Both the position numbers and the translations under genes were made by a program. Positions 1,154-52,255 of a DNA stretch of 53,357 nucleotides are shown one piece after another (position 1 is the first letter of the stretch; every line of letters begins with the position of its first letter). A model generated the notes under the pieces. That model did not search any database and was not told the origin of the DNA. It worked only from the letters and a program-made list of their open reading frames with translations. The DNA lies in contig CAMBPQ010000015.1 of the NCBI GenBank assembly GCA_945869735.1, positions 1-53,357 of the forward strand, written 5' to 3'. This DNA comes from Planctomicrobium piriforme. GTDB lineage: Bacteria; Planctomycetota; Planctomycetia; Pirellulales; UBA1268.

Positions 1154-3568
1154 GTGCCTTCCTCGAATGCCGCATCCCTGAACGTATCCCAGCGTCAGGC
1201 CGCGTCCCACGTCGAGGGACCGCTCCTGGTGCTGGCAGGGCCTGGAAGCGGCAAGACCCGGGTGGTGACGCATCGGATCGCCAACCTGATCTCCTCAGGG
1301 GTTCCTCCCGAACGGATCGTCGCGCTGACCTTCACCAACAAGGCGGCTGACGAGATGCGGCGGCGTGTCACCGAGTTGGTGGGGCCCCAGCCCGTGGAGA
1401 TGGGCACATTCCACCGCTTCGGGGCCCGGCTCCTCCGCCGTCACGCGCGGCAGGTGGGCCTGACGAGCGATTACTCGATTCTCGATCCCAACGACGCCGC
1501 TGGTGTCCTCAAGCGCGCGGTGAAGTCGCTCGGACTCACCGCGACGCACACCCCCGTTGACCGGATCGCGGGCGTGATCTCCCGCGCGAAGAACGACCTC
1601 CTCACACCCTCGACCTTCCAGCCGCGCTGGGGCAAGCCGGTCGATGACGTCGCGCTGCGAGTCTGGCCGACCTACCAACAGTTGCTGCTGCGGGCCAACT
1701 CGGTCGACTTCGACGACCTACTCGTGCACGTCGCCACGCTCCTGGCCGAGGATCCCGAACTCCGCCGCCAACTCGACGCCCGCCACCGATTCATCCTTGT
1801 CGACGAATATCAGGATACCAACGCCGTCCAATACTGCATCCTCCGCGGACTCTCGATTGACCATCCGAATCTTGCCGTCACCGGCGACCCCGATCAGGCG
1901 ATCTACGGCTGGCGGGGCGCCAGTATCCGCAATATTCTCGAGTTTGAACGGGACTATCCGGCTGCGACGGTCGTGAAGCTCGAGGACAACTACCGCAGCA
2001 CCGCCAATATCCTCGGTACAGCCGATCGCCTCATCGCCCACAACTCGCGGCGCAAGCCGAAGCGGCTGGTCACGACGGCGGCGCCGGGCGCACCGGTGCG
2101 GATTGTTCTCGATGGCTCAGGGCTCGAGGAGGCCGAGCGGATCGCCGCGGAGATCGCGCAGGCCTCGGCGGCCGGCCGGCGATCGCTCCGCGACTTCGCG
2201 ATTCTGTTTCGGGCCAATGCTTTGTCGCGGTCGTTCGAACTCGCGCTGCGAACCCGCGGCATCGCCTACCAGCTCGTTCGCGGCCTTGAGTTTTTCAAGC
2301 GGCGTGAGATTCGCGATGTGGTCGCGTGGCTGCGGCTGCTGCGAAACCCCCGTGACGACGAGGCGATGCTCCGCGTGGTCAACGTGCCGCCGCGGGGCAT
2401 TGGCCGGCAGTCGCTCGACCGGCTGGCGGCCTGGGCCGATGACCATGCCGCCACGCGGCTGGAGGCCGCGATGAAGGCCGCCGGGATCCCCGGGATGCCC
2501 AAGCGGGCGGCCACGGCGTTGGCTGCGTTTGCCAGGCTGCACGCCGAGCTCGCGGCTACCGCCGGCCGGGAGCCCTCCGTGGCGGCCTTGCTGGAGGCCG
2601 TGCTCGACCGCACCGGCTATCGGGCGATGCTTGCCGAGGATCAGGATGACGATGAAGAAGGGCAGGATCGTTTGGCGAACGTGGAGGAACTGGTCACCGC
2701 CGCGCGGCAGTTCGACGACACGTTCGCTCCCGCCCCGGCCACAGGCACCGAGGCCACCGACGCCCTGGGGGGCTTTCTGGAGACGACGGCCCTCGTCGCC
2801 GACACCGACGTCTGGGACTCGGCCGCCGACCGGGTCGCGCTGATGACGTTTCATGCCGCCAAGGGCCTCGAGTTTCCCGTCGTCTATCTTGTCGCCATGG
2901 AAGACGGCATCCTGCCCCACGAGCGGAGCCTCGGCAATCCCGAGCAACTCGAGGAGGAACGCCGCCTCGTGTTCGTCGGGATCACGCGAGGGCGCGAGGA
3001 GGTCCATGCCAGTTGCGGGAGGATGCGCGACTACCGTGGCACCCGACGCATCTCGGCACCGAGTGTGTTTCTTGCCGAGATGCAGGGGTCGGAGACGGAG
3101 GTGGTCGGCGAGGAAGCCCCTCGCGGCCATGACGGCTTCGATCCCTTCGGAGATGCCGCCCGTCGTGCCGGCGGCGAGTTCGACGATCTCTCGCAGGAGC
3201 CGCCGCCCGACCGGAGTATCGCCACGCCCCGCATCTCCCGTGGCGACGGCCTCACCATGGATCTCGACGATTCCCAAGACGAGTCGGCGGTCCGGCCAGC
3301 GCCCCCGCCGCGACGTCGCGTCCTCGATGCCGCGATCGAGCGGGCCACGGATCTCGCCCTGCGGATGGCCGGCGGATCGCGTCCGAAGCAGCAGTATGAG
3401 CCGGGCCAGCGAGTGCGGCACGCCGACTACGGCGAGGGACTGCTCGCGGGCATCAGTGGCACAGGGCCGCGTGCGGTGGGCACGGTGATCTTCGACGGTC
3501 CGGCCGGCATGCGCAAGTTCGTTCTCAGTCACGGCGTCCTCGAGCAGCCTGAAAGCGCATCCGACTGA
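1154..3568 (+). CDS. pcrA: PcrA/UvrD-type superfamily 1 DNA helicase
   Basis: An ATP-dependent 3'-5' DNA helicase of 804 residues with the full SF1A motif set. It has Walker A GPGSGKT (29-35), TFTNKAADEM, the Walker B motif DEYQDT (217-222), GDPDQAIYGWRGA, EDNYRST, MTFHAAKGLEFPVV and VGITRGREEV. The C-terminal part after about residue 640 is low complexity. It ends in a small domain with YEPGQRVRHADYGEG and GTVIFDG, like the Tudor-type PcrA/UvrD tail that binds RNA polymerase. It would act in repair, replication-fork clearance and removal of stalled transcription. The start is GTG at 1154; no strong ribosome binding site is visible, so the first few residues are uncertain. The gene has its own divergent promoter region (981-1153) and ends next to a repeat cluster. 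Confidence 0.93.
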   Translation: MPSSNAASLNVSQRQAASHVEGPLLVLAGPGSGKTRVVTHRIANLISSGVPPERIVALTFTNKAADEMRRRVTELVGPQPVEMGTFHRFGARLLRRHARQVGLTSDYSILDPNDAAGVLKRAVKSLGLTATHTPVDRIAGVISRAKNDLLTPSTFQPRWGKPVDDVALRVWPTYQQLLLRANSVDFDDLLVHVATLLAEDPELRRQLDARHRFILVDEYQDTNAVQYCILRGLSIDHPNLAVTGDPDQAIYGWRGASIRNILEFERDYPAATVVKLEDNYRSTANILGTADRLIAHNSRRKPKRLVTTAAPGAPVRIVLDGSGLEEAERIAAEIAQASAAGRRSLRDFAILFRANALSRSFELALRTRGIAYQLVRGLEFFKRREIRDVVAWLRLLRNPRDDEAMLRVVNVPPRGIGRQSLDRLAAWADDHAATRLEAAMKAAGIPGMPKRAATALAAFARLHAELAATAGREPSVAALLEAVLDRTGYRAMLAEDQDDDEEGQDRLANVEELVTAARQFDDTFAPAPATGTEATDALGGFLETTALVADTDVWDSAADRVALMTFHAAKGLEFPVVYLVAMEDGILPHERSLGNPEQLEEERRLVFVGITRGREEVHASCGRMRDYRGTRRISAPSVFLAEMQGSETEVVGEEAPRGHDGFDPFGDAARRAGGEFDDLSQEPPPDRSIATPRISRGDGLTMDLDDSQDESAVRPAPPPRRRVLDAAIERATDLALRMAGGSRPKQQYEPGQRVRHADYGEGLLAGISGTGPRAVGTVIFDGPAGMRKFVLSHGVLEQPESASD

Positions 3569-3699: not shown

Positions 3700-3738
3700 C
3701 GCTCTAGCAACGGTGTGGAGCGGGGCGGGGTGCGACCC

Positions 3739-3779
3739 GCATTCCCCGCGCTAGCACTTGGGGCTTCCTGACGGGAGGC
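3739..3779 (+). repeat. dispersed repeat module A, copy 1
   Basis: The core is GCATTCCCCGCGCTAGCAC followed by TTGGGGCTTCCTGACGGGAGGC. Two hairpins are possible: CCCC pairs with GGGG around a GC-rich loop, and GCTTCC pairs with GGGAGGC around TGACG. The preceding stretch from 3700 (GCGGGGTGCGACCC region) is shared with the copy near 16520-16560. Confidence 0.8.
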
Positions 3780-3805
3780 ACGCCGCTCGGATGTTCAACA
3801 CGTCT

Positions 3806-3967
3806 CCCGATCATGAGGAGCCGGTCGGAGGCACGCGCAGAAGCCGGGGCATCTTTGCGACTCACGAACAATGCCCAGTCGGCCAAGCGGGCATCCTGTA
3901 GCAAAATCCCCCGGCGCCGAGCATGTCACCGCCGGCGAACCAATCCGGTATTGTTTCGATGCTATCC
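3806..3967 (+). repeat. dispersed repeat module C, copy 1
   Basis: One of four copies of an approximately 160-base element. The invariant block GCATCCTGTAGCAAAATCC is at 3891-3909. It is followed by a hairpin whose arms are CCGGCG and CGCCGG around GAGCATGTCA. The element runs without a gap into module A copy 2. Confidence 0.8.
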
Positions 3968-4040
3968 GCATTCCCCGCGCTCGCGCTTCGGACTTCCTGA
4001 CGGGAGGCAAGGGGGTCGGCGAACGCTTGAGGAGCGTCTG
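3968..4040 (+). repeat. module A copy 2 fused to a partial module B
   Basis: Module A (3968-4008) ends in CTGACGGGAGGC and passes directly into AAGGGGGTCGGCGAACGC, the first part of module B, which breaks off near 4040. The gene-free stretch 3569-4053 consists almost wholly of these repeats; I see no other gene in it. Confidence 0.75.
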
Positions 4041-4053
4041 ATCGCCAAGGTCA

Positions 4054-5733
<1,680 letters not shown>

Positions 5734-5869
5734 GTCGCGGTGTTCCTTGCGATGAGACGGAGCCTGGTCGCTCGCCGGTCCAAGCCGGTCAGCAGACGAC
5801 TCCCGCAGAATAGTATGCTGATCCCACCCTTGAAAGACGCCGCCACCGCCACCGTCGCATCGCCCCAAA

Positions 5870-6490
5870 ATGCCTCCCGCCTTCATCTATTTCGATCTCG
5901 GAAACGTCGTCTTCTTTTTTGACCGTGAACGGGCCTTCCGGCAGATGGCCGAGACGAGCGGCGTCGATGCGTCGCGGGTGCGCGACGTCGTCATGGACGG
6001 TGGCCTGCAACAGTCACTCGAGCGCGGTGCCATCGGCTGGGAGGAGTTTCACGCCGAGTTTTCCAGCCGCACCGGCACGCAGTCCGACCCCGGGGTGCTG
6101 GCCCGGGCGGCGAGCGACATGTTTGATCTCAATGCGGGAATGCTTCCGGTCGTCGCAGCCTGCAAGCGGGCAGGCATTCCGCTCGGCATCCTCTCCAACA
6201 CGTGCGCTCCCCATTGGGATTTTCTTGCCTCCGGGCGATACGCCATCGTGCCCGACACCTTCCGCGAAATCGTGCTCAGCCACGAGGCGGGCATGGCGAA
6301 ACCAGACCGTGAGATCTACGCGCTCGCAGCCGCCCGGGCGGGCGTCGAGCCGGCACGCATCTTTTTCTGCGACGATCTGCCGGAGCACGTCGCGGCAGCC
6401 CGTGCCGCGGGCTGGGACGCTGAGCTCTTCACGACGGCCCCCATGCTTGCTGACCAACTCGAGCGTCGTGGCCTGCCCCTAGGACTGTGA
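5870..6490 (+). CDS. HAD-superfamily hydrolase, YihX-like
   Basis: A 206-residue haloacid-dehalogenase fold protein. Motif I is FDLGNVVF with the nucleophile Asp9; the second acidic residue of the usual DxD is replaced by Gly-Asn, as in the YihX sugar-phosphatase group (FDLGNV). Motif II is LSNTC (about residue 110), motif III is MAKPDREIY, and motif IV is [13 protein letters not shown]. These predict a cytosolic phosphatase or related hydrolase; the substrate cannot be told. The start ATG at 5870 leaves 136 bases to the ilvD start, which should carry both promoters. Its 3' end overlaps the end of the opposing glutaredoxin-like gene by 12 bases. Confidence 0.85.
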
Positions 6491-11940: not shown

Positions 11941-12073
11941 AGCGGCGAGATGGCACCTTTGAGAAGGGAGGCAAGGGGGTCGGCGAACGCTCGAGGAGCC
12001 TGGGCGTATCCTCGCCCCGGCGACGAGACTTTTGCCGCCCCCGAGCCGGCGTTCCACGTAAGTCGGATGCGAT
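11941..12073 (+). repeat. dispersed repeat module B, copy 2
   Basis: Forward copy with GGGAGGCAAGGGGGTCGGCG, the GGGCGTATCCTCGCCC hairpin, GACGAGACTTTTGCCGCCCC and the right end CCACGTAAGTCGGATGCG. It lies between the dead kinase and the porin gene. Confidence 0.8.
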
Positions 12074-12212
12074 CGAGGGGCGCTGTCTGGGCAAGACAGT
12101 GAGGCTGTGTTTCTCGATGGCTTAAAATCCTGTTCAAGCGGACCGCCGAGGGTTCCGATGAAGAGGGTTGTAGAGATTGTTCTGCTTCTTCGGACCACGC
12201 GGCCCAGGGAAG

Positions 12213-15351: not shown

Positions 15352-15489
15352 CGGCGAACGCTGGAGGAGCGTCGGGCCGCCGCGGCGATAGAGCGACGAG
15401 ACTTTTGCCGCCCCCGAGCCGGCGATCCGAATCGCCGCCACGGCAGTCGTGACCGCAAGGGCGACGACGAAACGGGTGCAGCGCGTCAT
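15340..15489 (-). pseudogene. truncated secreted protein cut by module B
   Basis: The start ATG (15487-15489) overlaps the stop of the LRR lipoprotein gene as ATGA, so the two were coupled. The peptide starts MTRCTRFVVALAVTTAVAA, a plausible export signal. After about 22 codons it runs into repeat B and stops at 15340, 49 residues in all. The original body of the gene is gone. The family cannot be recognised. Confidence 0.55.
15350..15433 (+). repeat. dispersed repeat module B, copy 3 (shortened)
   Basis: It begins at the stop codon of the nucleosidase gene (CGGCGAACGCTGGAGGAGCG). It has a GCCGCCGCGGC hairpin in place of the commoner one, followed by GACGAGACTTTTGCCGCCCC. It lies between two convergent genes. 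Confidence 0.75.
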
Positions 15490-16600: not shown

Positions 16601-16721
16601 ACGGGGGTCGGCGAACGCTCGAGGAGCCTCGGGCGTATCCTCGCCCCGGCGACAATCCGCAGGACCGCGCAGCGGCGACTTTTGCCGCCCGCCAGCCGGC
16701 GATCCACAGAAGTCGAAGACG
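16593..16721 (+). repeat. dispersed repeat module B, copy 4
   Basis: It shares the GGGAGGC seam with module A, then GGGGGTCGGCGAACGCTCGA, a GGGCGTATCCTCGCCC hairpin, about 20 extra bases (ATCCGCAGGACCGCGCAGC), and ACTTTTGCCGCC. It lies inside the broken toxin gene. Confidence 0.8.
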
Positions 16722-16752
16722 ATCTGAACCGGCGGCAGCACGTCTTTGTGCA

Positions 16753-20172: not shown

Positions 20173-20339
20173 CGCGCTCACTCCCAGGCCGCCACGCTGC
20201 CGGGAGACGACCGTCGCCGCCCGGGTTCTCTGGCCGGGTGCCGCCACCTCCACTAGGATGCGGAGGCACCTGAGAAACGTTGTATCTTACGACGCCGGTG
20301 CCCACCCGGTCGACGCCGTCCTCGCCCCGAGTCATTGCC

Positions 20340-21293
20340 ATGAAAATCCTGCTCGCTAGCCCCCGCGGTTTCTGCGCGGGAGTCAATATGGCCATCGAGA
20401 CCCTCGAGACGGCGATCCGTCTCCACGGCACGCCGATCTACGTCTTCCACGAGATCGTTCACAACAAGCACGTCGTCGACCGGTTCATCCGCGAGGGGGC
20501 GGTGTTCGTCAACGGGGTCGAAGAGGTGCCGGAGGGTGCCGTGCTCCTTTTTTCAGCGCACGGCGTGGCTCCCGAGGTCCGCCGCGTCGCCACCGAGCGG
20601 CGACTGCGAGCTATCGACGCCACCTGCCCACTCGTCACGAAAGTACATCTTGAGGCGATCAAGTACGCGAAACAAGGCTATCGCATCATGCTCATCGGCC
20701 ACGAGGGGCACGACGAGGTGATTGGCACGATCGGCCAGGCACCCGATGCCTTCACGCTTGTGGAGACACCCGAAGACGTCGACTCGCTCCCGTTCGGCCT
20801 CGACGACAAACTCGCCTACCTCACTCAGACCACACTCTCCGTCGATGACGCCTCGCGGATCATCACCCGGCTCAAGGAGCGGTTTCCGCAGATCGTCGGC
20901 CCGCCCAAGGATGACATCTGCTACGCCACGCAGAATCGCCAGGAGGCCGTGCGATTGCTCTCCGAGGGGGCCGAGATCGTGATCGTGCTCGGGAGCCAAA
21001 ACAGTTCCAATAGCCAGCGGCTTGCAGAACTCGCCCGTGAGCGGGGCATTGCGGCCTACCTCATCGACGGTGCCAACGAGATCGACCCGGCATGGTTCCG
21101 GGGCGATGAGACGGTGGTGATCACGGCCGGCGCGAGCGCTCCGGAGAGCGTGGTGCAGGACTGCATCGCGTGGCTGCGTGAGCGATTCACAGCCGACGTC
21201 GAGGAGCGAACGATCCGTCAGGAAGACGTCTATTTTCCGCTCCCGAAGGAGTTGCGGGCCGCCGCGACGGCCGCGCAGTTCCCGATGGCCTGA
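20340..21293 (+). CDS. ispH: 4-hydroxy-3-methylbut-2-enyl diphosphate reductase
   Basis: Last enzyme of the MEP pathway, giving IPP and DMAPP. It has 317 residues with the three [4Fe-4S] cysteines at Cys12 (RGFCAGV), Cys96 (ATCPLVTK) and Cys194 (DDICYATQNRQ). The catalytic Glu126 is in HEGHDE, with His41 and His74 (SAHGV) for the diphosphate. The tail after about residue 290 is a short family-variable extension. ATG at 20340; the frame is open 20 codons upstream. Divergent from hpnC, so precursor supply and squalene synthesis share one intergenic control region. Confidence 0.96.
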   Translation: MKILLASPRGFCAGVNMAIETLETAIRLHGTPIYVFHEIVHNKHVVDRFIREGAVFVNGVEEVPEGAVLLFSAHGVAPEVRRVATERRLRAIDATCPLVTKVHLEAIKYAKQGYRIMLIGHEGHDEVIGTIGQAPDAFTLVETPEDVDSLPFGLDDKLAYLTQTTLSVDDASRIITRLKERFPQIVGPPKDDICYATQNRQEAVRLLSEGAEIVIVLGSQNSSNSQRLAELARERGIAAYLIDGANEIDPAWFRGDETVVITAGASAPESVVQDCIAWLRERFTADVEERTIRQEDVYFPLPKELRAAATAAQFPMA

Positions 21294-21326
21294 CGGTAGC
21301 GCGGAGTGGGACGAGGTAGCGAGCGG

Positions 21327-21365
21327 ATTCCCCGCACTCGCGCTTGGGGCTTCCTGGCGGAAGGC
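21327..21365 (+). repeat. dispersed repeat module A, copy 5
   Basis: ATTCCCCGCACTCGCGC then TTGGGGCTTCCTGGCGGAAGGC, 30 bases after the ispH stop. It begins a repeat cluster that fills the gap 21294-21683; no other gene is seen there. Confidence 0.8.
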
Positions 21366-21390: not shown

Positions 21391-21551
21391 TCCGATCGTG
21401 AGGAGCCGGCGGTGGCACGCACAGACGCCGGGGAATCTTTGCGACTCACGAGCAACGCCCCGTCGGCCACGCGGGCATCCTGTAGCAAAATCCCCCGGCG
21501 GCGAGCATGTCACCGCCGGCGAACCAATCCAGCACCGTCTCAATGCCACCC
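21391..21551 (+). repeat. dispersed repeat module C, copy 2
   Basis: The clearest copy. GATCGTGAGGAGCCGG opens it, and TCGTGAG (21395-21401) pairs with CTCACGA (21443-21449). The invariant GCATCCTGTAGCAAAATCC is at 21474-21492. A perfect 7-bp hairpin follows (CCGGCGG and CCGCCGG around CGAGCATGTCA). It continues straight into module A copy 6. Confidence 0.85.
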
Positions 21552-21674
21552 GCATTCCCCGCGCTCGCGCTTGGGGCTTCCTGAAACGGAAACACCGCCG
21601 GCGAACCAATCCAGCACCGTCTCAATGCCACCCGCATTCCCCGCACTCGCGATTGGGGCTTCCTGGCGGGAGGC
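21511..21674 (+). repeat. 82-bp tandem duplication of a C-tail plus A unit
   Basis: The end of module C with module A (21511-21589) is repeated 82 bases downstream (21593-21674). The first 50 bases of the two copies look identical apart from one loop base; they include CACCGCCGGCGAACCAATCC and TCAATGCCACCCGCATTCC. Module A copies 6 (21552-21589) and 7 (21634-21674) are the two ends of this duplication. Confidence 0.85.
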
Positions 21675-21683
21675 GGCGCGATT

Positions 21684-22712
21684 TCAGAGTCCGCATTCGC
21701 GGACCATGCGGGCGGCATCGATCGCTGCGCCACGGGCACCGGCTGAATCGCCGCTCGGCATCACGTGGATCGGCAGGCCGGCCTGTTCCTCCCGCTGCGC
21801 CGGCATGCCGGCGCGGATCTCAGCGATGAACCACGTCCGGAACTCAGCAGAGGTTTCAACGGCGCCGCCGCCCACGATCAAGGCATCGGGATCGAAGACG
21901 TTGATCATTTCGTCGAAAAACAGCGCGAGGGCCCGGGCCTGCACGCGGAAGATGTCGCGGCAGAGTGGGTCGCCCTGCTCCGCCAGGCCACGAACCCGCT
22001 TGGCGGCCTCGCCGGCGTCGCCGACCGCGGCAAGCGGGTGGCTCGGGTTTCGCGCCAGGAAATGCGGGAGCAGCGTACGCCGAATCGCGGTCAATGAGCA
22101 GAGCGACTCAAGGTCGCCCGTCCGGCCACAATTGCAGTCCGGCACGAGGCCCTCGATGCCGGGGATCGCCTGGTAGGGGATCAGCACATGGCCCAGTTCA
22201 CCGCCGAAACCATGACGGCCGGTGACGACGCGGCCGCTGGTGATCACGCCCCCGCCAAGGCCCGTGCCGATGATCGCCGACACGCTCGCAGCCTCGTTCT
22301 CGGAGCCGAAGATCGAGACATGGCCCCAGAGCGCCGCCGCGTTGCCGTCATTGAGGTAGGTGACGGGTAGGCCGAGCCGGGACTCGAGGCCCGCGCGGAT
22401 GTCGTAGCCCGCCCAGGCGGGATGGACGAAGTTCGTCGAGCCCCGCCGGCTCAGCACTCCCGCGGCGCTGGCGGGGCCTGGCGTGTCGAGGCCCACGGCG
22501 ACGAGTTTGTCTCTCGCGACGTCGGCCCGCTCGGCGGCCAGCACCAATCCATCCGCGATCTGCCCGATGCACACCTCGGGGCCTTCAACGCTCCGGGCGG
22601 GATGCTCGCAGAGGCCTTGGATGAGGAACTGCCCGCGCTCATCGAGAAACGTGTAGTTGATGGCGGTGCCGCCGAGGTCGATCCCAGCGACGACTTTCTC
22701 TACTGGCGACAT
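21684..22712 (-). CDS. ROK-family sugar kinase (glucokinase-like)
   Basis: A 342-residue ROK protein without a DNA-binding domain, so a kinase and not a repressor. The ATP motif is VAGIDLGGTAINYT. The ROK signature region has IGTGLGGGVI, GFGGELGHVLI and the Cys cluster CNCGRTGDLESL; a Cys usual in the zinc motif is replaced by Asp here (CNCG..GD in place of CxCG..GC). The catalytic Asp is in VTYLNDGNAAALWG. A glucose or N-acetyl-hexosamine kinase are the usual activities. ATG at 22710-22712 is chosen at the homology start. It lies 46 bases after sufE on the same strand, with no clear functional link. Confidence 0.87.
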   Translation of the reverse strand: MSPVEKVVAGIDLGGTAINYTFLDERGQFLIQGLCEHPARSVEGPEVCIGQIADGLVLAAERADVARDKLVAVGLDTPGPASAAGVLSRRGSTNFVHPAWAGYDIRAGLESRLGLPVTYLNDGNAAALWGHVSIFGSENEAASVSAIIGTGLGGGVITSGRVVTGRHGFGGELGHVLIPYQAIPGIEGLVPDCNCGRTGDLESLCSLTAIRRTLLPHFLARNPSHPLAAVGDAGEAAKRVRGLAEQGDPLCRDIFRVQARALALFFDEMINVFDPDALIVGGGAVETSAEFRTWFIAEIRAGMPAQREEQAGLPIHVMPSGDSAGARGAAIDAARMVRECGL

Positions 22713-22758
22713 GATGTCGATAAATCCTTTTTGTCTCGTTCCGGTCGGTCCGAACCGC

Positions 22759-23199
22759 TCAGCCGGCCGCGCTCGCATGATTGGCGAACCCGCGCTTCAC
22801 CCGGGCCACGATCGCCCGGAGTCCGCGGGTCCGGAGGATGCCAAGCACGTCCGCCAGGCCCATCCGCTCGAGCATGTCATCGGAGATCGCGGCCACGTCG
22901 GCCACCGGTCGGCCGTTGATGGCATCAGCGAGGATCGCCACGAAGCCCTTCACGGTCGGGGCCTCGGCCGCCACTTCTGCCACCAGCCGCGCCGCATCGG
23001 CAGTGCCCTCGGTCCAGAGAAAGACGGACGTCTGACACTCGTGCACCCGCCGGTCCTCCAAGGCCTTCCGGGCCTCGTACTCCGCCGGGAGCGGCGGAAG
23101 TCCGTGGGCAAAGTCGACGAGCAACTCGAGTTTCTCGCGGGCGTCGAGATCGGCAAACTCCCCGATCAGTTCGTCGAGCCGCTGCTGAATACTTTCCAT
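22759..23199 (-). CDS. sufE: cysteine desulfuration protein SufE
   Basis: A 146-residue sulfur-acceptor protein that takes persulfide sulfur from a cysteine desulfurase (SufS) for Fe-S cluster assembly. The acceptor is Cys55 in RRVHECQTSVFLW. LIGEFADLDAREKLELLVDF and FVAILADAINGRPV are also typical SufE segments. It follows the sulfurtransferase gene by 3 bases, so the two are surely cotranscribed. No sufS or sufBCD is in the window. Confidence 0.92.
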   Translation of the reverse strand: MESIQQRLDELIGEFADLDAREKLELLVDFAHGLPPLPAEYEARKALEDRRVHECQTSVFLWTEGTADAARLVAEVAAEAPTVKGFVAILADAINGRPVADVAAISDDMLERMGLADVLGILRTRGLRAIVARVKRGFANHASAAG

Positions 23200-29575: not shown

Positions 29576-29725
29576 CGCATCTGCCTTTGGTGGAGCGGTG
29601 AGATGGAACCTTGGAGGAGGGAGGCAAGAGGGTCGGCGAACGCTCGAGGAGCCTGGGGCGTATCCTCGCCCCGGCGACGAGACTTTTGCCGCCCCCGAGC
29701 CGGCGTTCCACCAAAGTTGGATGCG
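29576..29725 (+). repeat. module B copy 5, full-length with terminal inverted repeats
   Basis: The most complete B element, 150 bases. The left end CGCATCTGCCTTTGGTGGA (29576-29594) and the right end TCCACCAAAGTTGGATGCG (29707-29725) are inverted repeats matching at 16 of 19 positions. Inside are the GGGAGGC seam, GGTCGGCGAACGCTCGAGGA, the perfect hairpin GGGGCG/CGCCCC (29655-29672) and GACGAGACTTTTGCCGCCCC. The rest of the gap 29367-29733 holds no gene; it should contain the shc promoter. Confidence 0.85.
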
Positions 29726-29733
29726 ATCTCAAG

Positions 29734-34516: not shown

Positions 34517-35851
34517 CTAGGAGCGGCCCACCGGACTGTCGAGTGCCGGCGACGCATCGGCAGCCGTGCTGGCCTGTTCGTCGGGGTCGAAAAAGGCAGG
34601 CAGGAGTGAATCGACGCGGAGCAGGCCGGCCCGCGAGAGCACTGGCATGGGCTCGGTCTGCTCCAGCCAGCCGGCGTCAGCGAGCTGCCGCCACTGGCTT
34701 GCCCACTCGACAAGGGGATCGATGCCATACTTCGCCGCGAGCCGCCGCGTGTCGACAGTGCCCTTTTTGAGCCCGAGCACGAGTTCGCGAATCAGCAGCT
34801 CCCGCCGCGTCGGCCGGAGGCCGCGGTGGATCGGCAGCCGGCCCGACTCCACGGCGGCGAGGTAGGGATCCCAGTGGGGCTCGTTCTGATAGTGCACGCC
34901 CGACACGTGTCCAAAACTCGCGACGCCGAGCGCCACGAGGTCGCTCCCCTCCCAGAGCATGTCACGGTAGCGAAAGTGCACCTTCGCGGGATCGCGGACG
35001 AGCGTGTAGCCGCTTGAGACGGCATAGCCACGGTCGATGAACCGCTCGAATGCCCAATCGACCCACCTCCGCTTCGTGGCCCAGTCGACGACGGGCACGT
35101 CCCGCCCCGCGCCCTTCGCGTCCTTGACGAACACGGTGTTGAAGGGGAGTTCCATCTGGTAGATCGTCACGCTGTCGGGCTCGAGCGTCAGCGTCTTCTC
35201 GACCGTCTTCCGCCATGATTCCTCCGTCTCGCCCACCATGCCCGAGATCAGGTCGACGTTGGTATTGGGGAAGCCCGCCGCCTTGATCCAATCCCAGGAG
35301 CGGAGGATCTCGGCCGAGAGGTGGGCGCGGCCGTTGGCCTCGAGAATCGCATCGTCGAAGTTCTCGACGCCCAGCGAGATCCGCGTCATGCCGAGCGACT
35401 TGAGGGCCCTGACCTTCGGTTCGGAGAGCGTGCCCGGCTCGCACTCAAACGTCACTTCCTCGGCATCGTCCCAGCCGAAGCTCTCGTGAATCCCGGCCAC
35501 GAGCCGCTCGAGTTGCTTCACGCTCAGGAACGAGGGCGTACCGCCGCCAAAGTAGACGTAGCGGAGCATTCGGCCCTCGACAGCCGGCAGCGCCGCGGCG
35601 AGCGCCGCCTCGCGGGCGAGCGCCAGCGAATACCGCTCCACGTCGGCCGCCGCCACGTCGGTGTAGACACGGAAGTAGCAGAACTTGCACCGCTTCCGGC
35701 AGAAGGGCACGTGGAGATAGAGGCCAAGCGGCTCGGCTGTCGGCGGGGCCGCGAAGGCGTCGAGCACGGCGGGCACGGCGTCGGCCGTCCACCGATGAAA
35801 CGGCGGATAGTTGGCAACGAAGTAGCTGCCCGGCTCGGTGGTTTCGGTCAT
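34517..35851 (-). CDS. HemN/HemW-like radical SAM enzyme
   Basis: A 444-residue radical SAM protein of the coproporphyrinogen-oxidase-like group. The N-terminal YLHVPFCRKRCKFCYFRVYT contains CxxxCxxC with the aromatic residue typical of HemN. Further segments are YVYFGGGTPSFLS, FECEPGTLSEPKV, RISLGVENFDDAILEANGR, VDLISGMVGET and a C-terminal winged-helix-like region. It is not the classical HemN; HemW, HutW or another methyl/alkyl transferase role is possible. The ATG at 35849-35851 has GAGGAAG just upstream; an open frame continues upstream into repeats A and C and is rejected. It reads toward the prenyl synthase and DUF98 genes. Confidence 0.82.
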   Translation of the reverse strand: MTETTEPGSYFVANYPPFHRWTADAVPAVLDAFAAPPTAEPLGLYLHVPFCRKRCKFCYFRVYTDVAAADVERYSLALAREAALAAALPAVEGRMLRYVYFGGGTPSFLSVKQLERLVAGIHESFGWDDAEEVTFECEPGTLSEPKVRALKSLGMTRISLGVENFDDAILEANGRAHLSAEILRSWDWIKAAGFPNTNVDLISGMVGETEESWRKTVEKTLTLEPDSVTIYQMELPFNTVFVKDAKGAGRDVPVVDWATKRRWVDWAFERFIDRGYAVSSGYTLVRDPAKVHFRYRDMLWEGSDLVALGVASFGHVSGVHYQNEPHWDPYLAAVESGRLPIHRGLRPTRRELLIRELVLGLKKGTVDTRRLAAKYGIDPLVEWASQWRQLADAGWLEQTEPMPVLSRAGLLRVDSLLPAFFDPDEQASTAADASPALDSPVGRS

Positions 35852-35946
35852 CGCTTCCTCGCCGGCCGAACGTCGCCGAGCCATACCGCTGATGCCCGAG
35901 TTTAACGTACCGCACCGGCGAACGCGATTGCTGACACCTTGCAGCC

Positions 35947-35983
35947 CGGCTCCCGTCAGGAAGCCCCAAGCGCGGGGTGTGCG
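35947..35983 (-). repeat. dispersed repeat module A, copy 11 (shortened loop)
   Basis: Reverse A: GGCTCCCGTCAGGAAGCCCC then AAGCGCGGGG. It lacks part of the loop sequence. Confidence 0.7.
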
Positions 35984-36147
35984 GGTGGCACTGAATCGGT
36001 GCCGGAATGGTTCGCCGGGAATGACATGCTCGGCGCCGTGGATTTTGCTACAGGATGCCTGGCTGGCCGACGGGGCGTCGCTCGTGAGTCGCAAACATTC
36101 CCGGCTTCTGCGCGTGCCACCCCCGACTCCTCACGATCGGGAGTCGG
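35984..36147 (-). repeat. dispersed repeat module C, copy 3
   Basis: Reverse copy with the invariant block as GGATTTTGCTACAGGATGC at 36040-36058. The hairpin downstream of that block is damaged (one arm ATTCCCGG). The element ends 5 bases before the TIM-barrel gene stop codon. Copies of A and C fill the gap 35852-36152. Confidence 0.8.
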
Positions 36148-36152
36148 GTGCT

Positions 36153-37163
36153 TCACATGCCCCGCGCGGCCAGCAAGTCGTCGAAGTCGCGGAGATGGTA
36201 GGCCACCTTCGCCTTGTCGAGCACGCGGCACAACGCGCGGACGGCGATGCCCATGCCGTCGGGGCCGCTCGTGCCGCCAAACTGCCCTCCGCCGCGGACA
36301 TGCGGCTCGAGGTCGAGGAACACGCCCGGGATGCCCCGGCGTTCCAGCTTCTTGGAGAGCGTCGGCAGCATGCCGCGGAGGTCGGCGAGGATCTTCTCGT
36401 GGCCACCGGCGCCGATGTCGGCCGGCACGAAATGAGCGAGAGCGTCTTCCTCGACGTGCTTGCCGCGGGCGGTGCCCTTGACCTTCCGGTAGTCCTTGAT
36501 GTGCACCCACCCGAGCCCGGGCTTCATGGCCTCCCACTGGGCGTAGACCTCCGCGGTGGAGAAGCCCTGGGCAATCAGGTTCGCGGCGTCGAATACCAGC
36601 ACGAGCCCCGGGTGGTTGACCCGGCGAAAAATCTCGGCGAGGAGCTGACCGGTGCGGCCGACGAGATTGGCCTCGACTTCCAGGCCGAACGTCAGATCGG
36701 AACGATGGCAGGCCTCCGCGATCCGACCGATCCGCTCCACCGCTTCCTCGAGGTGGTCTTCGGGCTTGGCGGTCTTCGGTGGATAGAACGAAAACCCGCG
36801 AATCAACTTCGTCTCGAAGGCGTGGGCGAGTTCACAGGCCTTGGCCACATCCTTAGCGAGATACTGCTTGAAGGGCACGTAGACGTTCTTCGTACCGTCG
36901 GGCTTGTCGACGAGTTTCACCTTGCCGATCGGCGATGCGATCGAGGCCACGTTAAGGCCGTACTCGTCCTCAAGGTGCCGGACCTTCTGAATCTCGGCCA
37001 GCGTGAGCTTCATGACGTTCTTCACGCCCTTGCCCACGTCGATGTGCCGGATGCTGTAATACTCCAGCCCGAGCGCGGCAAGCGCGCTGAACTGCTCGAC
37101 CGCGGAGCAATGGAAGGAAGCTTCGTCGGCGAGGGCGGAGAGAAGGACGGCGGGCTGCGGCAC
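36153..37163 (-). CDS. xylose-isomerase-like TIM-barrel protein
   Basis: A 336-residue sugar phosphate isomerase/epimerase family protein. Landmarks are [20 protein letters not shown] at the start, [38 protein letters not shown] (metal-binding Glu), [23 protein letters not shown] and [19 protein letters not shown] (metal ligands). The GTG at 37161-37163 was chosen because AAGGAG stands 6 bases upstream. Cytosolic; the substrate is likely a sugar or inositol derivative but cannot be told. Confidence 0.85.
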
Positions 37164-39070: not shown

Positions 39071-39200
39071 GCGGCGACGTGGCAAGCCAGGGGACGAAGC
39101 GAGAGGGTCGGCGAACGCTCGAGGAGCGTCGGGCCGCCGCGGCCCAGAGCGACGAGACTTTTGCCGCCCTCGAGCCGGCAAAACACCAAAGTGGAATGCG
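39071..39200 (+). repeat. dispersed repeat module B, copy 6
   Basis: It fills the whole gap between the queE stop and the glycosyltransferase stop. It has GAGAGGGTCGGCGAACGCTC, the alternative hairpin GGGCCGCCGCGGCCC and GACTTTTGCCGCCCTCGAGC. The outer pairs change together: GAGGG/CCCTC here against GGGGG/CCCCC in other copies. Confidence 0.8.
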
Positions 39201-40253
39201 TCAGCCGACCGACGCCATCGCGGCACCGCCGAGGAGTTCGATCGTCGCGCGGCCCACCTCCGCCACCGTGATCAGCCGCATGCAGTCGTTGTGCACCAAC
39301 GGGCACTCGCCGCGGTCGCATGGCGAGCAGGGCAGATCGCGGCGGATCTCCACGCATCGCCCCGCATCCGATCGGCCGATTCGGGGATCGGTCGGGCCCA
39401 CGAGCGCCACGGTGGGAACGCGGAAGCCGGCCGCAATGTGCCGGGGACCACTGTCGGACGACACTGAAACGGCGGCCCGCGCGTAGACGGCCTTCGACAG
39501 TCCCAGCGGCAGGTCGTCGATGTCGCCAAGCCCGCGCACGGCCGGAATGCCGGCGAGTTGCACGACCGCACGAGACTCCTGGCGGTCGGCCGGGCCACAG
39601 TGCACGAGGATGCGCACGCCTGGCACACGGTTGGCGATCCACCGGCCAAGCGCCGCGTGGTTCTCGACGCCCCAGGCGCGGGCGGGGCCGTTGGAACTGT
39701 TGTCGTTGAGCACGACGAGCGGGCCGGAGCAGCCGGGGAAGAGTGCGGCGAGCAGGGCGTCGCCCCGCGCGAGGTCGGCGTCGCCAACCATGAGTTCGAC
39801 ATCGAGCGGCGCCGGAGGAACGCCGATCGCGTCGGCGAGTTTCATGAAGGCCACCGGCGGAGGCACGATCGGCTCTTCGCGGTGTGAAGGAATGGCGTCG
39901 GTGAGCAGCCAGCGGCGGCAGCGACCGACATAGCCGACGCGCCGCCGAGCGCCGCCGGCAAAGGCAAGGGCGGCCGACGACAGCGAGTTGGGCAGCACCA
40001 GCGAGATGTCGGCCCGGTCGCGGCGCAGCGTCTGAGCCGCGGCCCCGAAGCCATGGGCGGGATTTTTCCCGTGCCGGTCGTAGAAGACGTGGTCATCGAT
40101 CCAGCCCGTGCCATCGAGCAGGTCGGCCACCACCGGCCGCATCACACCAGTGATGCGGGCGGACGTCCCGAAATGCGACTTGAGCGTGCGGAGCAGGGGA
40201 GTTGCCATGACGGCATCCCCGACCCAACGTGGCAGGATCACGGCGATATGCAT
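39201..40253 (-). CDS. GT9-family glycosyltransferase (heptosyltransferase-like)
   Basis: A 350-residue protein of the ADP-heptose:LPS heptosyltransferase family. The N-terminus MHIAVILPRWVGDAVMATPL is the family hallmark. FDxxxxF-type features are replaced by VVLNDNSSNGPARAWGVENH and LVHCGPADRQE. The nucleotide-binding end is SSDSGPRHIAAGFRVPTVAL and VGPTDPRIGRSD. CSPCDRGECPLVHNDCMRLI forms a Cys cluster common in this family. It probably adds a sugar to lipopolysaccharide core. ATG at 40251-40253. Confidence 0.88.
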   Translation of the reverse strand: MHIAVILPRWVGDAVMATPLLRTLKSHFGTSARITGVMRPVVADLLDGTGWIDDHVFYDRHGKNPAHGFGAAAQTLRRDRADISLVLPNSLSSAALAFAGGARRRVGYVGRCRRWLLTDAIPSHREEPIVPPPVAFMKLADAIGVPPAPLDVELMVGDADLARGDALLAALFPGCSGPLVVLNDNSSNGPARAWGVENHAALGRWIANRVPGVRILVHCGPADRQESRAVVQLAGIPAVRGLGDIDDLPLGLSKAVYARAAVSVSSDSGPRHIAAGFRVPTVALVGPTDPRIGRSDAGRCVEIRRDLPCSPCDRGECPLVHNDCMRLITVAEVGRATIELLGGAAMASVG

Positions 40254-45505: not shown

Positions 45506-45569
45506 GCGACACGTTTTGACACGGCACGAGAGTCGAGGGGCTGGCAAAACCAGCCCGCGACCCGCGCGA

Positions 45570-46001
<432 letters not shown>

Positions 46002-48984: not shown

Positions 48985-49941
48985 ATGATGGCGAACCAGC
49001 CGATGACAGACGACGAGCTTCCCGTGCTGTTCAGCCTGATCGGCAACACGCCCTTGATCCCGCTCCACTTCCGGAGCGACGGCATCACGATCCACGCGAA
49101 GGCGGAGTTTCTCAATCCGAGCGGCTCGATCAAGGACCGGCTCGCGGCCTTTATCCTGCTCGATGCCCGCCGCCGCGGGCTGCTGAAGCCCGACACCGTC
49201 ATCGTCGAGTGCACGAGCGGCAACACGGGCATCGCCCTGGCGATGGTGGGCGCGGCGCTGGGTCACCGGGTCCGGATTCTGATGACCGACACCGCCAGCG
49301 TGGAGCGGCGGCATCTGATGCGGCACTTTGGCGCCGAGCTTTCGCTCTTCGAAGCGACGCACGGCTACGCGACCGGGATCGACATGGCAGAGCAGATGGC
49401 CGCCGCCGACCCGAGGATTTTCTTGCCGCGACAGTTTTCGAACGAGCTCAACGCCCGGGACCACACCGAGCACACGGCCCGGGAGATCCTCGCGCAAGTG
49501 CACGGCCGGATCGATGCGTTCGTAAGCGGCTACGGCACCGGCGGCACGCTCAACGGCGTGAGCCGCGGCCTCCGGGCCGTGCATCCCGGCGTTTGCATCG
49601 TGGCGATGGAGCCGGCGGAGGCGGCGATGCTTCAGGGGGAGTCGCCCTGCTGCCACTTCATCGAGGGTGTGGCGGGCGGCTACCTGCCGCCTCTGCTCGA
49701 CGGCGTGTCGATCGACCGGAATGAAAAAGTCGCGTCGGCCGAAGCGCTGGCGATGACGCGGCGGCTGGCGCGGGAGTTCGGCCTGCTGGTAGGGACTTCG
49801 GCTGGTGCCAACGTGGTCGCAGCCCTCCGCACAGCGCGGGATCTGCCGGCGTCCGCCACGGTCGTGACGATCCTCTGCGATCGGGCCGAGCGGTATTACT
49901 CGACGCGGCTGTTCACCGACGTGTTGGCCGAGACCGCATGA
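48985..49941 (+). CDS. cysteine synthase-like PLP enzyme
   Basis: A 318-residue fold-type II PLP protein. The cofactor lysine Lys50 is in NPSGSIKDRLA. The substrate loop is CTSGNTGIALAM (77-82), and the phosphate cup is YGTGGTLNG. It resembles O-acetylserine sulfhydrylase (CysK/CysM) or cystathionine beta-synthase-like enzymes. The ATG at 48985 has GAGGA a few bases upstream; a second ATG follows. It overlaps marC by four bases (ATGA). Confidence 0.85.
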   Translation: MMANQPMTDDELPVLFSLIGNTPLIPLHFRSDGITIHAKAEFLNPSGSIKDRLAAFILLDARRRGLLKPDTVIVECTSGNTGIALAMVGAALGHRVRILMTDTASVERRHLMRHFGAELSLFEATHGYATGIDMAEQMAAADPRIFLPRQFSNELNARDHTEHTAREILAQVHGRIDAFVSGYGTGGTLNGVSRGLRAVHPGVCIVAMEPAEAAMLQGESPCCHFIEGVAGGYLPPLLDGVSIDRNEKVASAEALAMTRRLAREFGLLVGTSAGANVVAALRTARDLPASATVVTILCDRAERYYSTRLFTDVLAETA

Positions 49942-50603
49942 CGTACTTCATCCATTTCTGGGAACTCGTTCTCGGCACGATCCTCGCACTGCTGCCGGTG
50001 ATCAATCCGCTCGCGTCCGCGCCAGCCTTCCTGGCCATGACCGACCGCCTTTCGCCGGCCCAGCGGCACCGCCAACTCCTGGTGGCGTGCGTCTACATGG
50101 TGGTGATCCTGGTGACGTTTCTCGTCGGGGGCTCGCTGATCATGGGCTTTTTCGGGATCTCGATTCCCGGCCTGCGGATCGCCGGCGGCCTGATGGTGGC
50201 CGGCATCGGCTCGAGCATGCTGGTGTCAACGCCGGCCGCGGTTGGCGAAGCAGACATCGCCTCGCCGGAGCGTGATATCGCGTTCACACCGCTGGCGATG
50301 CCGATGCTCAGCGGCCCCGGGGCGATCGCGGTCACGCTCGGCTTCACATCGCTGGCGTCGGGATGGCTGGATTACGTCGCCGTGATGCTGGGCATCGTGG
50401 CGATGGCCGTGATCGCCTACACAACGCTGCGGCTGTCTGGCTCCATCGTTCGCGTCATCGGCCAGGTGGGCATGAATGCGTTGACGAAGGTGATGGGGTT
50501 TTTGCTCCTGTGCATCGGGATCCAGTTCATCGTCAATGGTGTGCTCGGCATCGCGACCGATCCCGTGCTGCTGCGAAGTATTCGCGACTCGCTCCACCGG
50601 TGA
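49938..50603 (+). CDS. MarC-family integral membrane protein
   Basis: A 221-residue protein with six predicted TM helices in two similar halves: ELVLGTILALLPVINPLASAP, VYMVVILVTFLVGGSLIMGF and IAGGLMVAGIGSSML, then FTPLAMPMLSGPGAIAVTLG, YVAVMLGIVAMAVIAYTTL and KVMGFLLLCIGIQFIVNGV. The PLAxPxLSGPGAI sequence is the family signature. Function unknown; once thought to cause drug resistance. Coupled to the upstream PLP enzyme. Confidence 0.9.
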   Translation: MTYFIHFWELVLGTILALLPVINPLASAPAFLAMTDRLSPAQRHRQLLVACVYMVVILVTFLVGGSLIMGFFGISIPGLRIAGGLMVAGIGSSMLVSTPAAVGEADIASPERDIAFTPLAMPMLSGPGAIAVTLGFTSLASGWLDYVAVMLGIVAMAVIAYTTLRLSGSIVRVIGQVGMNALTKVMGFLLLCIGIQFIVNGVLGIATDPVLLRSIRDSLHR

Positions 50604-50691
50604 TGCAGCACGCGGCAGGCTCTGGCAGACCGAGCGACCGCATCACTGCCAGCCGTCGTGGTAACGCAAAGCGGGGTGACGTGGCGGGTGT

Positions 50692-50730
50692 CTTTCCCGC
50701 GCTCGCTCCTGGAGCTTCCTGACGAGAGGC
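50692..50730 (+). repeat. dispersed repeat module A, copy 12
   Basis: TTTCCCGCGCTCGCTCC then TGGAGCTTCCTGACGAGAGGC; changed on both arms (GGAG/CTCC type), 89 bases after the marC stop. Confidence 0.65.
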
Positions 50731-50741
50731 GATGCCCGCCC

Positions 50742-50900
50742 CCGATCGTGAGGAGCCGGTCGGGGGCACGCGCAGACGCCGGGGAATGTTTGCGACTCAG
50801 GAGCGATGCAGGGTCGGCCAAGCGGGCATCCTGTAGCAAAATCCCCCGGCGGCGAGCATGCCACCGCCGGCGAACCAATCCGGCACCGCATCAATGCCAC
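50742..50900 (+). repeat. dispersed repeat module C, copy 4
   Basis: GATCGTGAGGAGCCGG opens it; the invariant GCATCCTGTAGCAAAATCC is at 50826-50844. The perfect hairpin CCGGCGG/CCGCCGG follows. It runs into module A copy 13. Confidence 0.85.
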
Positions 50901-50943
50901 GCGGATTCCCAGCGCTTGCGTTGGGGGCTTCCTGACGGGAGGC
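50901..50943 (+). repeat. dispersed repeat module A, copy 13
   Basis: GCGGATTCCCAGCGCTTGCG then TTGGGGGCTTCCTGACGGGAGGC. From here to 51086 (143 bases) I see no gene or repeat. The gap 50604-51086 thus holds A, C, A and this unassigned tail. Confidence 0.75.
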
Positions 50944-51352: not shown

Positions 51353-52255
51353 CTACCGCCAGTTGCGGAACGGCTCGTAGATGCGAACGGAGAGGAGCAG
51401 TTCGCTGGCACTGAAGGCAGACGTGTAGGAGCCAACGGGCTGAACGAGGGAGCCGCCGCTCGTCACGGCCAGCGGTGTCGCCCCGGGGGTCATCGCGAAG
51501 AATCTTTAGCCAGTGTCGAACGTGATCCGGTCGCTGAGCTGATACGTGACACCCGTACCGACCTGCCATGCAAACGTGTTCACGACACTCGAACCCTTCA
51601 AAGGAATCTCCCCGTTCTCTTGCATGGAATACTGATATCCTCCGATGCCGAACCCGCCGCCGCCATACACGCCGAAGCGGTCGGTGAAGAAGTAGTCTCG
51701 CCAAAAGTTTGTCATCGCCGACCAGCCATTGGTGACGGCCACATCGAGCGGAATGACAGCCCCCGACGTTGTTCCACTTGCTATCTCAAAAGCAGTCTGA
51801 CCGTGCATCGCCCCCCGGGCACGTCCTTCGATCTCCATGCGGAGCAGGCCAGACGGTCGCGAGAGAGCCATGCCGATCGCACCGCCGCCATTGAGAATGG
51901 TGTCGTTGACTGAACCAACGGTCTGAAGCCGAGTTGTTGCCGCGAAAGCGGTGCTGCCACCCGCGTTGATCGTGCCGAACGACGCACCAACGATGCCGGT
52001 GACGTAGGGGCGAATCCACACTGCATAGCCGCTGGAATCGACCGGAGCGATCGGCGTCGTGTCCGCGTCGAACGTGTTTGCCGACTCATCCAGCACGGAG
52101 TCCATGCCGGAGAAACTCGATAGGTCGATTGGCGGGCTCACTTCATCAGCACCCGCAATATTGAAGACGACCGCCAAGATGGCGACAAACGCGCAGAGCG
52201 AAATACGCACGGCAGTGCTCCTTAGCTGTGAATTCCCCAAACCTGCGAGGGTCAT
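51353..52255 (-). pseudogene. outer-membrane beta-barrel protein with in-frame stop
   Basis: A 300-codon frame encoding a signal sequence (ISLCAFVAILAVVFNIAGA) and a small barrel (YAVWIRPYVTGIVGASFGTI, GSVNDTILNGGGAIGMAL, MTNFWRDYFFTDRFGVYGGG, WQVGTGVTYQLSDRITF). At 51506-51508 a TAA follows DTG where a Tyr codon (TAC/TAT) is expected. The same frame then continues for 50 codons (RFFAMTPGATPLAVTSGGSL, SASELLLSVRIYEPFRNWR) to a TAG at 51353. Nothing else is broken, so the mutation is recent, a sequence error, or read through. As it stands the 249-residue product lacks the last strands of the barrel. Confidence 0.7.

Follow-up and report, generated by a model that had tools for sequence, protein, structure and literature searches.

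The central finding of this analysis is a short dispersed repeat, here called element C, that folds into a single long rod on one defined strand; that this fold is real, selected, and strand-specific is close to certain. Four copies lie in the window, that is, the whole 53,357-nt stretch of DNA that was analyzed. We favor, at even chances, the reading that C is a non-autonomous element that spread as a folded single strand, with many of its copies then being kept at gene ends.

A preliminary description of the window had reported four copies of a module sharing an invariant block, and this was borne out. The window contains exactly four occurrences of the 19-base block GCATCCTGTAGCAAAATCC (3891, plus strand; 21475, plus; 36040-36058, minus; 50826, plus), and none of 100 shuffled sequences contains any. 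Copy 1, comprising the rod and apical loop, spans 3815-3948 on the plus strand (match to model R1 of 158.3 bits, E 7.6e-29), with the 5' lead CTCCCGATCAT at about 3804-3814. It is situated between two convergent genes, a UvrD-type helicase gene (1154-3568, plus) and an ILVD_EDD gene (4054-5886, minus), and is flanked on the plus strand by two copies of module A, a REP-like palindrome and partner repeat (family D2), upstream at 3717-3779 and downstream at 3946-4008. Copy 2 (21400-21532, plus; R1 match of 157 bits, E 1.4e-28) likewise sits between convergent genes, LYTB (20280-21293, plus) and ROK (21684-22778, minus), with module A upstream (21303-21365, plus; family D2) and a tandem pair of A-containing pieces downstream (21530-21674, plus; families D2 and D5), a repetition of the 3' terminus of C together with A.

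Copy 3 (36002-36132, minus) carries a coupled one-base deletion in both P2 arms of the rod and is followed by module A on the reverse strand at about 35948-36001. Its neighbors, an AP_endonuc_2 gene (36153-37163, minus) and a Radical_SAM gene (called at 34517-36094, minus, with a start that is over-extended into C), run in the same direction. Copy 4 (50750-50883, plus; R1 match of 156.4 bits, E 1.9e-28) comes after a MarC gene (49938-50603, plus), with the next called ORF at 51506-52255 (minus), and has module A on both sides (50668-50730 and 50881-50943, plus; family D2). The repeat families thus agree with the earlier observation that three of the four copies have an A before them.

Element C is far more numerous in the genome that the window comes from (G000; 3,174,667 bases, or 3.17 Mb, in 128 contigs). 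With up to two mismatches, the block was found at 115 places, 55 forward and 60 reverse, as against 0 for a reversed-pattern control. This count is a lower bound, since contigs end within C copies and the repeat breaks the assembly; several copies are located at contig ends, and C13, C22, C55, C77, C89, and C102 are among the contigs that end inside a copy. We studied 96 distinct G000 copies, 86 of which have full flanks and make up alignment A1. The dispersed module had been put at 160 bp; it is indeed a dispersed unit, but comparison reduces the conserved part to about 134 nt, running from GAGGAG to AAT.CGG, or to about 145 nt with the conserved lead CTCC(A/C)GATGCT. Flank information falls to background level within about 14 nt of the unit, and the flank information profile revealed no conserved promoter or terminator adjoining it. 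Lengths of 131-135 with one-base indels uphold the earlier statement that C has no credible reading frame; some frames are open through GC-richness, and we judged the element not to be coding.

The rod consists of a basal helix P1 (GCCGG..GGNGGCA-C-GC / GC-A-TGYC.CC..CCGGC), an asymmetric internal loop (CACGCGCAG / CGAGCATG), the helices P2 (GNNGCCGGTG / CCGCCGGCNNC) and P3 (AATTTTGC / GCAAAAT), and an apical domain of about 40 nt. The internal loop, which lies between P1 and P2, is nearly invariant even in the genome G086, and the apical domain falls into several sequence classes. Minimum-energy folding gave one long rod for most of the copies inspected. The mean folding z-score was -2.0 (97 copies), compared with -2.6 for the complementary strand, which folds equally well, so energy alone does not reveal the strand. 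When the own-genome copies were analyzed alone with RNAalifold, the consensus was weak, with a double change in 1 of 19 pairs, because the paralogues within G000 vary little; the fold becomes clear only with relatives. For the apical domain of class I, RNAalifold predicted no pair on 164 segments, and we therefore propose no helix there.

Covariation across genera provides the main evidence for the fold. In alignment A2, which contains eight relatives and 45 own-genome copies, double-sided changes were found in 10 of 34 pairs (shuffle mean 6.1, reached in 1 of 500). With 84 relative matches in 71 distinct rows (A3), this rose to 23 of 34 pairs (shuffle mean 10.0, 0 of 500), with 142 double-change cells versus 34.3 in shuffles and a score of 0.189 versus 0.080; sliding the partner by one to three columns destroyed the signal (score 0.023-0.033). 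Alignment A6 (51 rows, including the most divergent members, admitted at a cut-off of E 1e-7) gave 168 double-change cells versus 51.7. Because the model itself had guided the alignment of A3 and A6, the count was redone on a sequence-only, structure-blind MAFFT alignment of 115 relatives, in which 20 of 32 pairs changed on both sides (shuffle mean 7.8), with 164 cells versus 39.3 and 90.8% paired versus 24-52% with a slid partner. Length changes are coupled as well. In 12 of the 53 A2 rows each P2 arm is shorter by one base, counted with the 3' gap shifted up to four columns within a run of C, and one further row, L064, has the loss on the 3' side only.

The wobble pairs show which strand folds. 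G.T cells outnumber A.C cells by 102 to 8 in A3 and by 65 to 17 in A2, with a few poorly paired positions excluded from both counts, and by 158 to 36 in the structure-blind alignment; position 39/139 alone supplies 54 of the 102 G.T cells in A3. At that P2 position U.G is the commonest pair (54 of 66 lettered rows). The excess of G.T over A.C means that the selected fold belongs to one strand, and this is the GAGGAG...CGG strand. Together with the cross-genus covariation, and with no Rfam match to the element, these strand-specific wobble pairs support the structural half of the earlier suggestion of an unrecognized structured RNA.

Two other structural candidates were rejected. The 7-bp hairpin CCGGCGG/CCGCCGG, noticed earlier in two copies, is present there but differs from the fold that has been conserved: among the relatives, 67.8% of its cells are paired, with one double change, whereas rod pairs over the hairpin's same 3' columns reach 91.9% with 17 double changes in P1 and 79.0% with 31 in P2. 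The core of the hammerhead ribozyme reads CUGANGA ... GAA. Many relatives have CTGAGGA ... GAA, but the G000 copies read GTGAGGA and those of G020 lose the GAA.

Element C is restricted to one GTDB family in our searches, in which relatives' copy counts from scoring with models R1-R3, limited to 11-47 candidates in each genome, are lower bounds. R1 at E 1e-5 matched 24 of the 72 family genomes, and R3, built from wider members, matched 30 of the 72 at E 1e-3, in five of 12 genera, including all five genomes of genus g8 and all six of g12 and excluding g2-g7 and g11. Limitation to a single strain without structural conservation, which the preliminary description had named as the outcome that would count against it, is therefore not what we found; the element spans 30 family genomes and its fold covaries. 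No carriers were found outside the family, either among 296 genomes of the order (26 matching, all in the family) or among 297 sampled genomes of the class (4 matching, all in the family). Carriers include the MAGs casp40-mb.39, LakeFargette, LacPavin, and MsE-01oct19 (17 of 18 stretches, the eighteenth being judged a chance match). Hits in G023 (L014) and in a deltaproteobacterium (L105) were put down to chance, as they had no conservation beyond the core. There was no match to C in 50,697 phage records or 72,556 plasmid records, and a search of viral contigs with one C pattern gave 0 matches. Rfam 15 at the gathering score gave 0 matches in the window, and at E up to 10 it returned two weak hits outside C plus one of 9.3 bits. 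We found no description of the element in the open-license PMC literature.

Most copies of C follow the end of a gene, and spacers between divergent genes hardly ever contain one. Genes were called with our own codon-score caller, which sets some starts too far upstream, window copy 3 being an example. By these calls, 35 of 90 G000 copies are in convergent spacers, 13 lie between same-direction genes in sense, 10 in antisense, and 1 in a divergent spacer; 22 have one side uncalled and 9 overlap a called ORF. The 73 copies in relatives, some of them mutually orthologous so that the counts are not all independent, divide into 25 convergent, 13 sense, 17 antisense, and 1 divergent, with 6 uncalled and 11 overlapping. 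Summed over both sets, convergent spacers exceed divergent ones by 60 to 2, and sense and antisense copies stand at 26 versus 27, a parity that is awkward for an mRNA-borne role of a strand-specific fold.

Mean identity between copies is 0.84-0.93 within genomes and 0.71-0.85 between genomes, and between the five g8 species it is 0.91-0.93. We identified 15 positional pairs between genomes with both flanks matched. Nine of these, all within g8 and with an unchanged apical class, served to set the element against the flanking spacer (60 + 60 bases). The remaining six were excluded: two in which the apical class changes (L221 in both), three that span genera, and a single g1 pair (G021/G000). 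Differences affect 63 of 1179 aligned element positions and 180 of 998 spacer positions (Fisher 3.5e-21), with the spacer alignment poor in several of the nine pairs, L175/L285 and L180b/L203 marginal, and L166/L172 not significant. The three closest pairs together give 2/395 for the element versus 40/357 for the spacer (0/131 vs 9/120; 0/131 vs 10/120; 2/133 vs 21/117). L166/L172, L190/L200, and L180b/L203 differ by entire compensatory sets typical of other subfamilies, a pattern that points to probable replacement of some orthologous copies through recombination between copies; these three swapped-looking pairs weaken a reading of purifying selection.

Turnover is also evident at the level of presence and absence. 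Sister-species spacers lack C in L169/L212, L174/L211, L175/L219, and L176/L213, and at several loci the spacer contains an inverted element or repeats of other kinds. None of the eight loci compared, whose spacers are rearranged, yielded a clean empty site or showed a target duplication, so that transposition of C on its own stays conjectural. Because of its number, dispersal, and turnover, it follows that C is mobile by ancestry. At the orthologous locus L175/L221 the rod is kept and the apical domain is of another class, as if the apex were an exchangeable part. In the same spacer, L226 versus L169 and L028 versus L203 and L180 have the element in opposite orientations in different species, as hot spots or inversion would suggest.

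Module A is a partner of C in G000 and its near kin. The claim that C is always followed directly by A holds for all four window copies, but genome-wide only for 75 of 93 flanked G000 copies, with the tail of a MITE-like unit downstream of 12 and neither in 6; in other genera the core of C recurs without A. An A-like sequence precedes C in 66 of 87 copies, and the same loose pattern was found in 63 of 400 random window stretches (a background of about 16%). By eye, the palindromes beside C differ among lineages: A in G000 and G009, GACACGATGTCGTGTTTCGCGTG in g8, ACAGGCTGAAGCCTGTCC in g12, and CCCCCCGGCTCGCGCCGGGGGGCTTTTATG in G020. The MITE-like unit, a G000 subfamily of about 434 bp running from GGTCC(A/G)TCCGGGG to CCCCGAAGGACC at mostly 95-98% identity, encloses the A-C array. 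It has imperfect terminal inverted repeats (GGTCC.TCCGGGG...CCCCGAAGGACC; GGTCC...GGACC), and 27 left ends were counted in G000; L079, L084, L087, L090, L094, L095, and others carry C in this way. No transposase was seen inside the unit, where contigs often break. As the unit encloses C, part of the G000 copies moved as its cargo. The alternative label of a composite mobile unit is thus apt insofar as C is dispersed, varies in presence between close species, and in at least 12 copies rides the 434-bp unit, but the pairing of C with A is not obligate, and relatives have C alone.

Several known systems resemble C in part. ERIC/IRU and RUP are tabulated at 127 bp and 107 bp, with 108 copies of RUP, and together with Correia/NEMIS they are listed with terminal inverted repeats (TIRs), 5'TA3' termini, and target duplications (PMC2229807). 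Set against these tabulated features, C is similar in being about 100-160 bp long, intergenic, able to fold into long stem-loops, group-restricted, present in about 100 copies, and linked to a mobilizer that is indirect or unknown, and it differs in its strand-specific fold, nearly invariant asymmetric internal loop, and apical classes. A classical TIR-type MITE of this sort, moved by an IS transposase, would fit the size, the intergenic location, and the palindromic shape, and one G000 subfamily does sit in a unit with imperfect TIRs. However, that unit's tail adjoins only the 12 of 93 flanked copies noted above, relatives' inspected copies are without it, and no target duplication was seen at the rearranged loci compared. 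C also lacks TA termini, having CTCC and CGG as its conserved ends; its arms are imperfect inverted repeats, and the ends CTCC(A/C)GATGCT and AAT.CGG are not mutual complements. We consider this origin rather improbable. REPs are described as 20-40 bp long with GTAG or CGTC tags (PMC3733652). REP/BIME hairpins are mostly outside genes, and A and the other palindromes beside C look REP-like, whereas C itself is 134 nt, untagged, and bounded by GAGGAG and CGG. The fold might instead be single-stranded DNA or RNA read by the enzyme of an IS200/IS605-, RAYT-, or OMEGA-type (TnpB/IscB) system, with C serving as its ends or guide-RNA scaffold. Strand specificity, the REP-like neighbors, and the fact that no target duplication was seen would suit such a system, but the TnpB zinc ribbon (PF07282) was found in 0 of 72 family genomes (the control was detected in 6 of 14 known genomes), and Y1_Tnp (PF01797), present in 26 of the 72 in a pattern that does not track C, is absent from G000, the genome richest in copies, as well as from G009, G019, G020, and G032. 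The Rfam library search gave no hit to the IscB omega RNA (HEARO), and we regard this possibility as quite improbable. The Rhodopirellula-1 motif is entered as an ambiguous candidate structured RNA of Planctomycetes and Proteobacteria, without an Rfam number (Weinberg et al. 2010; PMC2864571); judged by that table entry alone, identity with C is unlikely, because across the order and class that were sampled the C models gave matches in a single family.

That C is a functionless palindromic repeat, carried along by recombination and hitch-hiking, with compensatory changes produced by gene conversion between arms or subfamilies, seems very improbable. Lineage-specific features common to copies and the orthologues that look subfamily-replaced would be expected from it, but conversion between arms predicts perfect palindromes, whereas in several genera the rod retains an asymmetric loop and G.T pairs specific to one strand; the near-identity of the element beside diverged spacers in the three closest pairs also speaks against it. 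An unlikely but more substantial alternative is a multi-copy non-coding RNA, each copy being a gene for a small RNA, or a processed RNA, that acts in trans through the internal loop and a class-specific apex, with amplification as a side effect. The RNA-type covariation, including the position where U.G predominates, agrees with this, as do the rod kept under a different apex at L175/L221 and the orientation-independent placement, which fits genes with their own promoters. Against it are the lack of a conserved promoter or terminator adjoining the unit and of any Rfam match, and a copy number that varies from 0 to more than 100 between related species, which is unusual for an RNA gene.

In the favored scenario of a non-autonomous element, C would spread as a folded single strand, either RNA or, somewhat less likely, single-stranded DNA. 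RNA is a little likelier, as U.G is the commonest pair at one position and the conservation of the loops resembles that of RNA bound by protein; with neither orientation bias nor promoters, DNA is a plausible alternative. A factor would recognize the folded strand through the invariant internal loop. Copies landing behind genes may be tolerated, and many may be kept since the rod works there, its simplest job being to block or end read-through or to protect RNA 3' ends. In G000, C would also multiply alongside the A palindrome and as cargo of the 434-bp unit. A bolder version, which we offer tentatively and would not expect to hold, is that C represents a new class of mobile non-coding RNA in bacteria, SINE-like, with a strand-specific folded intermediate (RNA or its single-stranded DNA), an undescribed enzyme, and an exchangeable apex, and that throughout a planctomycete family it was later domesticated at the ends of genes.

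For small dispersed bacterial repeats such as ERIC, RUP, and REP, the mobilizer and function are mostly open questions. The C family of uncultured lake planctomycetes combines covariation across genera with a polarity of strand, several apical classes, and orthologues at matching positions, and offers a way to test whether RNA or single-stranded DNA is the form in which such elements are moved and kept. It also carries a practical warning, as this repeat breaks planctomycete assemblies.

Other repeats are present in the window too. A second dispersed repeat, with the core GCGACTTTTGCCGCC.. / GACGAGACTTTTGCCGCCCCCGAGCCGGC and usually beside GGGGGTCGGCGAACGCTCGAGGAGC (families D4, D6, and D8), occurs at 12002-12074, 15375-15447, 16652-16724, 29656-29728, and 39131-39203. 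A long CCG/CCACC-rich near-tandem repeat (family D1) occupies 45559-45766, and its reverse strand resembles the tail of a glycine-rich protein.
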